DNA of 36,892 nt from Campylobacterales bacterium (GTDB taxonomy: Bacteria; Campylobacterota; Campylobacteria; Campylobacterales; QNZT01), in assembly GCA_016744895.1 (NCBI GenBank), contig JADGDK010000006.1, forward strand, positions 12,817 through 49,708, given 5' to 3'. This document shows positions 8,351 to 13,100 of this stretch, piece after piece. Position 1 is the first letter of the stretch, and every line of letters starts with the position of its first letter. Under the pieces are notes generated by a model. It had not been told where the DNA came from, searched no databases, and worked only from the letters and a program-made list of their open reading frames with translations. The position numbers and the translations under genes were made by a program.

Positions 8351-11317
8351 CTATTTTCTCAAATACTTTAAAACAGTCGCTATGATGTCATCATCATCTT
8401 TACTAGGTGCTTTGAGACTCTCTTTTCGCTCATTTTCATATACAATTGTGATATTTTGTTGATACGAAGAGATGGTTTTGATACTTTTTTCGGATGCCAA
8501 TATCTTAATCACAATCACCTCAAGAAAGTTTTTTGTCAACTCATCAAGTTCACCAAAACGGTCAATCATCTCCTCTTCTATCTCATAGACTTCATTAACT
8601 TGCTCACATTTACTCAAACGACGATATAGTTCTAACCGTATACGATCTTCTCCTACTGAGTCACTATTGAGGTATGCACTGACTGCAAGCTTGACTTCTA
8701 CTTCTGATTTTTCTGTTTTTTGTTGGTTTAAAAGTAAGTTTAAGGCATCCTCCAACATCTTAAGATAGAGAGAATATCCGATATTTTTGATATGACCACT
8801 TTGAGCTTCACCTATGAGATTTCCACCACCTCTAATTTCTAGATCATGATAAGCTAGCACCGAACCACTTCCCAAAAAGGAGTTTGACTCTAGTGCAATT
8901 AATCTTTTTTTGGAGGTATCTGAAATTTTATCTTTGTTTTCAACCAAGAAGTAGCAGTAACCCACACGACTACTACGCCCAACCCGACCACGAAGTTGAT
9001 GCAGGTCTGCCATGCCAAATCGATCCGCATTTTCAACAATAATCGTATTTACATTTGGGATATGAATACCCGATTCGATAATCGTAGTAGAGATCAAGAT
9101 ATCATACTCTTTTTTCTCAAAAGCCATGATCTCTTTTTCTGTTACAGCCGCTGAAATTTTTGAGTGAAGTACCAAGATCTTAGCATTTGGCAAAATTTCT
9201 TGTAACTCTTTTTTCTTTGCATCAATACTGGCAATTCGATTATGTACATAAAAGATTTGACCACCGCGTCTTGTCTCACGAAGCACAATTTCTTTTAATA
9301 GTTTCTCATCAAACTCTTTAACAAAAGTCCGAACATCTTCACGCTCACTTGGAGGAGTTAAAAGTTGTGAATATTGTTTGATAGAGCTAAGTGCCATGTT
9401 AAGCGATCTTGGGATCGGAGTTGCACTCATGGAGAGTACATGTAAATTCTCTTTGAGTGCTTTTAACTTCTCTTTTTGTTTTACACCAAATTTATGCTCT
9501 TCATCAAGTATCATAAGGGCAATATTGTTAAACGCTACACCAAACAAGGAATGTGTTCCTACACATACATCTATTGTACCCTCTTTAAGCCCTTTTAAAA
9601 TGTTACTTTTTTCGCGAGTTGTGGTAAAACGATCTAACTTCACAACAGAAACTCCATACTTAGAAAAACGCTCTTTTAGACTTTTATAATGCTGAGAAGT
9701 GAGCAAGGTTGTTGGGGCTAAAAATGCAGCTTGATAGCCACTTTTTACCGCTGCAAAAATGGCATTCATAGCCACTTCTGTTTTTCCAAAACCAACATCA
9801 CCACTAAGAAGTCGATCCATGACTTTACCATTTTTTAAATCATCAAAAATTTCATTGATACTTTTATCTTGGTCATCCGTATAGACAAAGCCTGCATCAT
9901 TTTGAAATAGTTTTAACTCAGTATGATTGCTTTTAAGTTTGACAGCATTGATAAGTTCACGACTCGCTGCTATCTCTATAATTTCACGGGCAATTTCAAA
10001 GAGTTTGACTTTGGTCTTCTCTTTCATCTTTAGGAAACTACTTTTTCCTAACTTATCCACTATGGCTAATGCACCACCCTCAGAAATATATCTATCGATA
10101 AGTGTTAAGTTTTCCACAGGAATCAAAAGCCTATCATCTCCTTGATAAGCAATCTCCACAAAATCTCGAACTGTGCCTAAAACTTTAGTATTTTTTAGAC
10201 CTTTAAAGATACCAATTCCATAATTTTCATGCACTACATAATCATTGACTTTAAGATCATCAAGAACAATAGAACTTCGTTTTCGTCTCTTTTTTCGCTC
10301 ACTTTTATTGAGTGATACAATGAGCTCATCATCACTCAAAACATTGACAATAAGTTCATTAAATTGATAATTTACTTTAATTTCTGCATCAATTCCAGAT
10401 TGTTTTGCCAAACCCTCATTTCTTGCGATAATTGTAATTTTCTTCTTTTTATGAAAACTCACCAATGCATTTAACTCAGCAACTTCAATATCTTTATAAA
10501 TTTTTGGCTCTTGGATAAGCGGTATGGCTAAGAGTTGCTCTTTTTTGGCTTTATCTTCAGAAAACGAAAAAAAATCTTCGATATCTTCTTTAAGATTAGA
10601 AACATAAATAGCACTTTTTGATTTGAGGTAATCCTCTGACAAATCTTCAAGGCACCAAAAACCAAGTGTTGAAATCTCTTTTTCAAAACTATCACTTTGA
10701 AGATTTGAAACCATTTTTTCTAATTGCTCATATTGTACACTATCAAGGGCAAAAAGTGCAGGTATCACTGAAACCGACTCAAGCTCCTCTTTTTCACTCT
10801 TTTGGGTTTCACAAGTAAAAATCCTAATACTCTCTATCTCATCATCAAAAAGTGAAATTCTTATGGGATAAGAAGCGTTTATAGGATAGAGATCGATGAT
10901 GTCACCCCGAAATGAAACCTCTCCTTTTTCTTCAACAATTTCAACAAAGGTATACCCCCAATGAAGCAATCTCTCTTTAAAATTACTTAACTCAATCGTA
11001 TCACCAAACTCAATATCAAAAGATTGAAAAAGCTCTTTTTTTGGAAGCGCATTTATCATCGTTCTAAAAGGTGCAATGAGTAGTGATTTTTTAGGATTGG
11101 TATGATAAGAATTTAGTGCCGCATTGATCTCAAAAAGCTCCTCTTTATAAGGGCGTAAATCATCGCCATGTGCTGCTCTAAAATCAGGAAGTTGATAGGT
11201 TTGATACCCTAGATATGTGGCACAGTCAGCTGCACTTTTTGCCTCTTTGTCATCTTTGGTAATAAGAAGTTGTATATCTGGTTTTGATTTAAGGTACTCG
11301 AAGAGTCTAGCTTGCAC
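8351..11317 (-). CDS. mfd: Transcription-repair coupling factor (GTG start)
   Basis: CarD-like domain NDYVVHENYGIGIFKGL, helicase motifs SGDVGFGKTEVAMNAIFAA, LDEEHKFGVKQKEKLK, MSATPIPRSLNMAL, ADLHQLRGRVGRS, C-terminal TRCF domain. Confidence 0.97.
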   Translation of the reverse strand: MQARLFEYLKSKPDIQLLITKDDKEAKSAADCATYLGYQTYQLPDFRAAHGDDLRPYKEELFEINAALNSYHTNPKKSLLIAPFRTMINALPKKELFQSFDIEFGDTIELSNFKERLLHWGYTFVEIVEEKGEVSFRGDIIDLYPINASYPIRISLFDDEIESIRIFTCETQKSEKEELESVSVIPALFALDSVQYEQLEKMVSNLQSDSFEKEISTLGFWCLEDLSEDYLKSKSAIYVSNLKEDIEDFFSFSEDKAKKEQLLAIPLIQEPKIYKDIEVAELNALVSFHKKKKITIIARNEGLAKQSGIDAEIKVNYQFNELIVNVLSDDELIVSLNKSERKKRRKRSSIVLDDLKVNDYVVHENYGIGIFKGLKNTKVLGTVRDFVEIAYQGDDRLLIPVENLTLIDRYISEGGALAIVDKLGKSSFLKMKEKTKVKLFEIAREIIEIAASRELINAVKLKSNHTELKLFQNDAGFVYTDDQDKSINEIFDDLKNGKVMDRLLSGDVGFGKTEVAMNAIFAAVKSGYQAAFLAPTTLLTSQHYKSLKERFSKYGVSVVKLDRFTTTREKSNILKGLKEGTIDVCVGTHSLFGVAFNNIALMILDEEHKFGVKQKEKLKALKENLHVLSMSATPIPRSLNMALSSIKQYSQLLTPPSEREDVRTFVKEFDEKLLKEIVLRETRRGGQIFYVHNRIASIDAKKKELQEILPNAKILVLHSKISAAVTEKEIMAFEKKEYDILISTTIIESGIHIPNVNTIIVENADRFGMADLHQLRGRVGRSSRVGYCYFLVENKDKISDTSKKRLIALESNSFLGSGSVLAYHDLEIRGGGNLIGEAQSGHIKNIGYSLYLKMLEDALNLLLNQQKTEKSEVEVKLAVSAYLNSDSVGEDRIRLELYRRLSKCEQVNEVYEIEEEMIDRFGELDELTKNFLEVIVIKILASEKSIKTISSYQQNITIVYENERKESLKAPSKDDDDIIATVLKYLRK

Positions 11318-11339: not shown

Positions 11340-11420
11340 GAACTTTCTTTTAAAACAGTGACGAGAGGCTCAGACCAAAGGGAGGATTTGCCTCGTAGGA
11401 GCTGTTTTAAAAGAAAGCTC
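11340..11420. repeat. Large intergenic inverted repeat (hairpin) between divergent mfd and serpin genes
   Basis: CTTTCTTTTAAAACAG (11343-11358) is the exact reverse complement of CTGTTTTAAAAGAAAG (11402-11417). One mismatch extends the stem outward (GA.../...TC), and an inner helix forms between ACGA(GA)GGC (11361-11369) and GCCTCGT (11390-11396). Confidence 0.85.
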
Positions 11421-11440
11421 TAATGGATTTAAAATTTTGA

Positions 11441-11459
11441 TATAATAGTATCAAGGAGT
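11441..11459 (+). promoter_or_regulatory. Putative -10 box and ribosome-binding site of the serpin gene
   Basis: TATAAT at 11441-11446, then AAGGAG shortly upstream of ATG 11464. No clear -35 box; the region it would occupy abuts the hairpin. Confidence 0.5.
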
Positions 11460-11463
11460 TTAT

Positions 11464-12684
11464 ATGAAACAGATTATAACAGCCCTTGTTGGAATGACAC
11501 TTTTAGTAAGTTGTAATTCTACTACTTCACAAGAAAATGAAGTACTTAGTAAATTACAAAGAGACCTAAATCCACAAGTGAGTGAAACAGATCTTAAACA
11601 ATTAGTCAGCAATAATAATAAGTTTGCATTTTCACTCTATCAAAACTTACATACCAATCAAAATAATACATTTTTCTCACCTATTTCAATCAGTCACGCA
11701 CTTATTATGACTTATGCAGGTACTAGTGGAGAAACTAAGAAAGAGATGAAAACGGCACTCAATTTAAGCCTTGATGATACAAAAGTCCATGCATCTTTTA
11801 ATAAATTAGATCTTGGCTTAAATATAAATGACGATACTTATATCTTTAAACTTGCTAATGCAATTTGGCCTTCACAAGATTTTAAATTTGAACAAAACTA
11901 TCTTGATACGATCATGGTCAATTATGGAGCTAGTTTAAAGACATTGGACTATAGTACCAAACCTGATGAAAGTCGCAACACCATAAATAACTCGATAGCA
12001 GAAAAAACTGAGAACAAAATACAAGATTTAATTCCAAAAGGAGCCATTACACCAATGACTAAAATGGTACTTAGTAATGCTACTTATTTTAAAGGCTCAT
12101 GGGAATTTCCTTTTGATCCAAATGATACAGAAAAAGGTATATTTGATAATTCTATAGAGACAGATTTTATGTCTCAAACAGAAATATTTTCTTATTTTGA
12201 GGATGAAAATTTATCCGCTATCAAACTAGGTTATAAAAAACAAAAAAGCTCTATGATTATCATACTTCCAAAAGATGAAACTTTCAACATATCAGAATCC
12301 ATTGTACAGCATATTCAAAATAATTTTATCAGACATAATGTCACCTTAAAAATGCCAAAATTTAAATTTACTACTGACTCGATCAGTCTCACTAACACCT
12401 TAGAATCTCTTGGAATGAAACTTGCTTTTGATAGTACTAAAGCTGACTTTAGCAATTTGAGCCAGACTAGTTCAATTTATATTAGTGATATTTTGCATAA
12501 AACATTTATCGAAGTAGATGAGTATGGCACCCAAGCAGCCGCGGCGACAACAACCCTACTCTCTACCACATCACAAGAAATTGTTTCAAATGCACAAATG
12601 TCTCTAGATAAACCATTTATCTATATGATTGTAGATGATCAGACGAGTCAAATACTATTTTTAGGCTATATGTTAAAACCATAA
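11464..12684 (+). CDS. Serpin-family protease inhibitor, predicted lipoprotein
   Basis: Lipobox LLVSC; NTFFSPISISHALIMTYAGTSGETKKEM; MVLSNATYFKGSWEFPF; reactive-centre hinge FIEVDEYGTQAAAATTTLL; C-terminal DKPFIYMIVDDQTSQILFLGYMLKP. Confidence 0.95.
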   Translation: MKQIITALVGMTLLVSCNSTTSQENEVLSKLQRDLNPQVSETDLKQLVSNNNKFAFSLYQNLHTNQNNTFFSPISISHALIMTYAGTSGETKKEMKTALNLSLDDTKVHASFNKLDLGLNINDDTYIFKLANAIWPSQDFKFEQNYLDTIMVNYGASLKTLDYSTKPDESRNTINNSIAEKTENKIQDLIPKGAITPMTKMVLSNATYFKGSWEFPFDPNDTEKGIFDNSIETDFMSQTEIFSYFEDENLSAIKLGYKKQKSSMIIILPKDETFNISESIVQHIQNNFIRHNVTLKMPKFKFTTDSISLTNTLESLGMKLAFDSTKADFSNLSQTSSIYISDILHKTFIEVDEYGTQAAAATTTLLSTTSQEIVSNAQMSLDKPFIYMIVDDQTSQILFLGYMLKP

Positions 12685-12692
12685 GGAAACAG

Positions 12693-13100
12693 ATGGGTAT
12701 TTTTACAAATTTAGAAACAGAGTTTGATATAGAAATTGTAGAGGAGTTTTTTTCACATTTCTCTTTTATGATCGAAGCACTTGAGCCTTTAATTATTGGT
12801 TTGGAAAAAGAAGTGTTTTATACAAATAACATAAATGAAATTTTTAGAATTTTTCATAACATAAAATCTTCTACTGGATATCTTAAAATTAGGCCTATTA
12901 ATAAACTCGTAACATTAGGCGAAGAGGTACTCGAAGAGTGCAGACATCAAAGTGGTGTGGGAAGCGATGAACTTATCAATTGGTTACTTCTTTTAAATGA
13001 TCAACTTTTACTTTACAGAAAAGATTTGGAAAAAGATAAAGATGTATTAAGCCCAATAAATCATAATATAATAAAAGTACCTACAAAGTATTTAAAGTAA
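12693..13100 (+). CDS. Stand-alone Hpt (histidine phosphotransfer) domain protein
   Basis: IFRIFHNIKSSTGYLKI matches the Hpt phosphoacceptor motif (HxIKSS); all-helical, 135 aa. Starts 8 nt after the serpin stop. Confidence 0.75.
   Translation: MGIFTNLETEFDIEIVEEFFSHFSFMIEALEPLIIGLEKEVFYTNNINEIFRIFHNIKSSTGYLKIRPINKLVTLGEEVLEECRHQSGVGSDELINWLLLLNDQLLLYRKDLEKDKDVLSPINHNIIKVPTKYLK

Follow-up and report, generated by a model that had tools for sequence, protein, structure and literature searches.

A serpin gene in the chromosome of a member of the Campylobacterales raises two questions: what such a protein might do at the envelope of this bacterium, and whether the gene is a notable acquisition or an older possession of its lineage. 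The gene lies on the forward strand at positions 11464..12684 of the window (the whole stretch of 36,892 nucleotides analysed here) and forms a complete frame with an ATG start and a TAA stop, encoding a lipoprotein of 406 amino acids. The source organism, Campylobacterales bacterium, is represented by a draft assembled genome as its sole record. The gene's placement in a Campylobacterales chromosome was supported, the nearest named relative being 'Campylobacterales bacterium isolate SZUA-1433' at 62% identity.

The identification as a serpin, originally made from the sequence alone, was confirmed by a Pfam match to PF00079 (serpin superfamily, MEROPS I4; E=3e-96) that spans residues 50-406 and covers profile positions 2-370 of 370. 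Its score, 323 bits where the cut-off is 27, excludes a chance match, while the NCBIfam search of the open reading frame returned no model giving it a name. A single-sequence search gave chloropin (PDB 8gxv, E=1.2e-55) as the nearest solved relative, followed by human leukocyte elastase inhibitor (4ga7, E=8.7e-55); when the query was a profile built from relatives, tengpin (E=6.6e-102) and conserpin led the PDB matches. The shutter, breach and C-terminal residues of serpins are present, with S72, P73, W213, H345 and K383-P384-F385 invariant in our alignment A1. Inspection of the translation also located N205 and, within the conserved S72-P73-x-S75, S75.

The first 17 residues form a type II signal peptide (MKQIITALVGMTLLVSC; 11464..11514, forward strand), which ends in the lipobox LVSC. 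The translation bears out the earlier reading of this region, with Cys17 as the predicted site of lipidation and Asn18 at position +2. The corresponding lipoboxes of the orthologues are FLGC and LVGC, the +2 residue among orthologues is Gly or Asn, and a lipobox is kept in the full-length orthologues and in the paralogues outside family f18, with the exception of L014. An Asn at +2 would direct the lipoprotein to the outer membrane if the E. coli sorting rule, carried over here, applied.

The hinge reads E353-Y-G-T-Q-A-A-A-A-T362. Aligned against other serpins, among them chloropin and MNEI, the sequence has P17-P9 at E353-A361 (EYGTQAAAA; 12520..12546, forward strand), and the inhibitory consensus is complete, as the first-pass annotation had stated, comprising E353 at P17, G355 at P15, T356 at P14 and alanines A358-A361 at P12-P9. 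The reactive-centre loop extends from P8 towards s1C (12547..12603, forward strand), as delimited by the MNEI register, its divergence and low pLDDT, and is long and rich in Ser and Thr. In the MNEI register, the canonical P1-P1' bond would be Thr369-Ser370 (12568-12573), in a loop that is the low-confidence part of the predicted model. With Thr369 rather than Arg or Lys at P1 by this register, the earlier view that the site is not trypsin-like holds. The segment from P1' to the KPF/s1C stretch is 4 residues longer than in alpha-1-antitrypsin, so that the bond really attacked could differ from Thr369-Ser370.

Comparison of the three syntenic orthologues revealed a sharp change in conservation along this region. 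Mean pairwise identity was 0.83 for the hinge (P17-P8), 0.70 for the body of the protein and 0.26 from P7 to s1C, making the loop the lowest-identity window of the serpin among these three sequences, with no other of the 342 windows of equal length as low. The flanking mfd is ~90% identical between the same genomes. Such a combination, with the loop as the most divergent part of the protein next to a conserved hinge, would be expected if the protein were a working inhibitor whose targets change. The divergence could also stem from relaxed constraint, though the adjoining hinge is the best-kept segment.

The first-pass annotation had proposed fold prediction of the reactive-centre loop as a check, and an AlphaFold model built with eight sequences gave a confident serpin fold (pLDDT 84.4, pTM 0.85) with the loop drawn inserted. 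Confidence is low for residues 1-30 and 372-382, with pLDDT below 50 in the latter. The best 50 matches listed by Foldseek against the PDB were all serpins, the leading ones including antithrombin L chains and latent conserpin. Together with residues 355-367, which are modelled as a strand beside 339-352, these matches indicate that the model appears loop-inserted. AlphaFold often draws serpin loops inserted; the model agrees with a hinge that can insert but is no proof of activity.

To the left of the serpin gene lies mfd, the transcription-repair coupling factor gene (8351..11317, reverse strand; TIGR00580, 1052 bits), which is 77-90% identical over its full length in four congeners (78% in G002, 90% in both G001 and G005). 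To the right, an Hpt phosphotransfer-domain gene (hpt; 12693..13100, forward strand; 135 aa; PF01627 just above cut-off) starts 8 nt after the serpin stop codon, and the two are probably co-transcribed. The Hpt gene adjoins mfd or the serpin in four congeners and occurs with or without the serpin. Further right are genes for an M23 cell-wall peptidase, folC, a GGDEF protein, lptE, leuS, secF, secD and yajC; apart from the M23 peptidase, the window holds no partner protease of an obvious kind, and no likely one adjoins the serpin. Alignment of the mfd-serpin gap revealed an extended -10-like element, TTGATATAAT (11437..11446, forward strand), 17 bases upstream of the serpin start codon, with the counterpart TTGCTATAAT kept in the orthologues. 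The resemblance is to the consensus only, and a site scan of the window did not have TTGATATAAT among the sites it returned.

The gap between mfd and the serpin also contains an intergenic hairpin (window positions 11343-11420), composed of a 31-nt conserved cap, GAGGCTCAGACCNNNGGGAGGATTTGYCCTC, on a stem of 22-28 bp. It sits in an insertion of ~100 bp in the source genome and is absent from the orthologous sites of G001 and G005. Allowing at most 2 mismatches, the cap recurs in 32 of the 399 genomes sampled from the order (families f1, f6, f14, f16, f20 and f22), with up to 20 copies per genome; a reversed control gave no occurrence. Across 23 aligned copies, stem cells are paired in 93.9% of cases against 58% in shuffles, and the stem sequence differs between copies. 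Two-sided changes occur in 25 of the 27 pairs (218 cells in the real alignment, 62 in shuffles), covariation scores 0.907 compared with 0.193 in shuffles, and slid controls remain below 54% pairing. All but one of 26 inspected copies lie outside open frames of at least 70 codons, and in the source genome the 18-nt sequence of the window hairpin's arms is confined to those two arms. An Rfam search gave no match above threshold, and the exact cap had no match in viral contigs. The stems of the REP families described so far measure 6-13 bp (PMC3733652), unlike the 22-28 bp of this element. Inverted pairs of hairpins ~80-150 bp apart were seen at G008:C149, G009:C163, G013:C7, G013:C147 and G013:C168; in the G008:C149 pair, the one that was read, each hairpin has its own stem sequence.

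Serpins were found in 4 of 6 genomes of the genus, 10 of 22 of the family and 26 of 399 sampled from the order; at the level of the order, the earlier description of serpins as sporadic holds. The source genome carries two. The second, L002 (G000:C359:16126-17226), is a distinct lipoprotein serpin of clade B with the hinge EEGTEAATSTA, and its neighbourhood is common to the source genome and G005. The order mfd-serpin-hpt is shared by the source genome, G001 and G005, whose serpins at this site are 62-65% identical. In two further congeners, mfd lies directly beside hpt without a serpin, at a distance of ~127 bp in G002 and ~60 bp in G004.

In G002, the gap retains a serpin leader in decayed form (IKEIIVAFDGLLV, aligned with MKEIITALFGAMLLV). 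The gap sequence aligns to the 5' end of the serpin gene, with ATA in place of the start codon, followed by KEIIVAFDGLLV against KEIITALFGAMLLV. The coding part of this remnant alone scored 46 against G001, a value reached in none of 2000 shuffles; the score against the source genome was matched by 4 of 2000 shuffles and that against G005 by 78 of 2000. The decayed leader indicates that the gene was lost in G002, and the alignments make it most likely that the ancestor shared by G002 and the other congeners still had it. Alignment of the G004 gap gave no clear sign for or against such a remnant. The mfd identities given above agree with that branching order.

In the serpin tree, the three syntenic orthologues form one clade (support 100/100), which groups with serpins of the sister genus g4, one serpin of family f6 and the long-branched L007 (95/91). 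Clade B (100/100) holds the second serpin of the source genome and members in G002, G005 and G008. Few references from outside the order were taken into the tree, and its deep placement is limited accordingly. L007 (G002:C79:10448-11593) is a lipoprotein serpin, probably non-inhibitory, with a subtilase-like frame ~2.6 kb away on the same strand. A partial serpin at a contig end, L028/L093 (G027:C204), lies beside genes resembling ftsA, ftsZ, hslV and hslU and groups with human leukocyte elastase inhibitor in a small tree (96/89); an assembly chimera, convergence or transfer could each account for this.

The notable acquisition implied by the first-pass annotation finds no support in the counts in genus and family, the shared site and the remnant, or in the phylogeny it had called for, in which the serpin falls among those of its own order. 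A one-off acquisition was ruled out by synteny, the G002 remnant and the grouping in the tree; the serpin is part of an older gene set of its family that was repeatedly lost. Contamination, estimated at 5.38% for the assembly, was likewise rejected as the origin of the contig, since mfd-serpin-hpt-M23-folC recurs in G005 and mfd-serpin-hpt in G001. A more specific version, in which the gene is recently acquired cargo from another phylum that has not yet settled, would suit the rarity of serpins in the order, where just 26 of the 399 sampled genomes have one. It is nevertheless very improbable and already largely refuted by the occupation of one site in three congeners at 62-65% identity, the decay in a fourth and the grouping with same-family serpins and the f6 serpin, as well as by a base composition like that of its surroundings and an open frame with intact functional motifs.

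We propose instead that the protein is a lipid-anchored inhibitory serpin at the cell envelope that traps proteases from outside, a reading to which we give a probability of about 0.6. After export and lipidation at Cys17, the protein would be retained at an envelope membrane, displaying its long reactive-centre loop as bait. A serine, or possibly cysteine, protease would attack the loop near Thr369, upon which the hinge would insert into sheet A and the protease would be trapped covalently. Its likeliest job would be to shield the cell from outside proteases, whether these stem from nearby microbes, from predators or from enzymes present in the environment. The sequences support the serpin fold, lipobox, hinge, variable loop, ancestry and loss; inhibition, the membrane side and the target class are what we infer. 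Alternatively, the serpin might restrain an envelope protease of its own cell, of the HtrA/DegP type or a subtilase. The source genome encodes two HtrA-type Trypsin_2 proteins and has six S8 subtilase matches, enzymes that a periplasm-facing anchor would meet and that make an endogenous target possible. We regard this as rather unlikely, given that S8 subtilases occur in all 22 family genomes, those with a serpin and those without, leaving no link between the two; that the two congeners with adjoining mfd and hpt manage without the syntenic serpin; and that the loop evolves far more quickly than would be expected if its target were a fixed enzyme of the cell. The loss of the gene in relatives is also easier to reconcile with a defence gene of conditional use than with a housekeeping regulator. 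Non-inhibitory serpins exist, and a role in binding or structure could be imagined from the degenerate hinge of the congener paralogue L007, EHGINIESKDDLE; for the present protein, it is improbable in view of the full hinge consensus, with Gly at P15, Thr at P14 and Ala at P12-P9, in what is the best-conserved segment among the orthologues.

Beyond this locus, a set of serpin fusions was observed in family f18. These exported proteins of ~700 aa (L017-L027, genus g23) combine an N-terminal domain, a cysteine-rich Kazal-like stretch and a serpin. Such fusions are encoded by 11 of the genus's 16 genomes; most have an inhibitory hinge, and several lie among conserved neighbours. The Kazal-like stretch follows the pattern PVCG...TYxNYC...GxC, and its Pfam Kazal matches fall below cut-off (best Kazal_CFAI, E=0.00088; Kazal_2, E=0.0028). 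The fusions may join two kinds of protease inhibitor in one chain. As a broader and still tentative idea, lipid-anchored serpins of the Campylobacterales might constitute a rapidly evolving defence against proteases in several lineages, with duplications, losses and, in f18, fusion to a Kazal-like domain. The driving force would be an arms race with the proteases of nearby microbes or of predators, not an animal host.

Most prokaryotic serpins carry N-terminal transport peptides, some are membrane-anchored, and their role is considered enigmatic; what they do and why few lineages keep them is an open question (PMC8233489). A search for literature on serpins in Campylobacterota or Nitratiruptor, which covered few subscription journals, found nothing relevant. 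Among characterized proteins, chloropin shares the hinge type and is likewise exported by a signal peptide, but it has Arg at P1 and inhibits thrombin and KLK7 (PMC10090351), whereas the present serpin has Thr by register and a lipobox. Miropin of Tannerella forsythia (PDB 5ncs) is also an envelope-exposed bacterial serpin, with a moderate sequence relation (E=3.5e-46), and differs in coming from a host-associated oral pathogen. It is described, in work cited in PMC4604654, as acting with broad spectrum through several loop bonds and as located mainly at the cell surface and to some extent in the periplasm. Tengpin of Thermoanaerobacter (PDB 2pee, 2vh4), the closest PDB match by profile, is a bacterial serpin too, but one from a thermophilic Firmicute, with a different loop and a special stability of its own. 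Exported bacterial inhibitory serpins are already known as a kind, and the protein itself is not of a new kind. What this locus offers is a set of orthologues that can be compared at one site, with the hinge kept, the loop hypervariable and one loss traceable, which makes defence against changing outside proteases testable beyond the usual host-associated cases.
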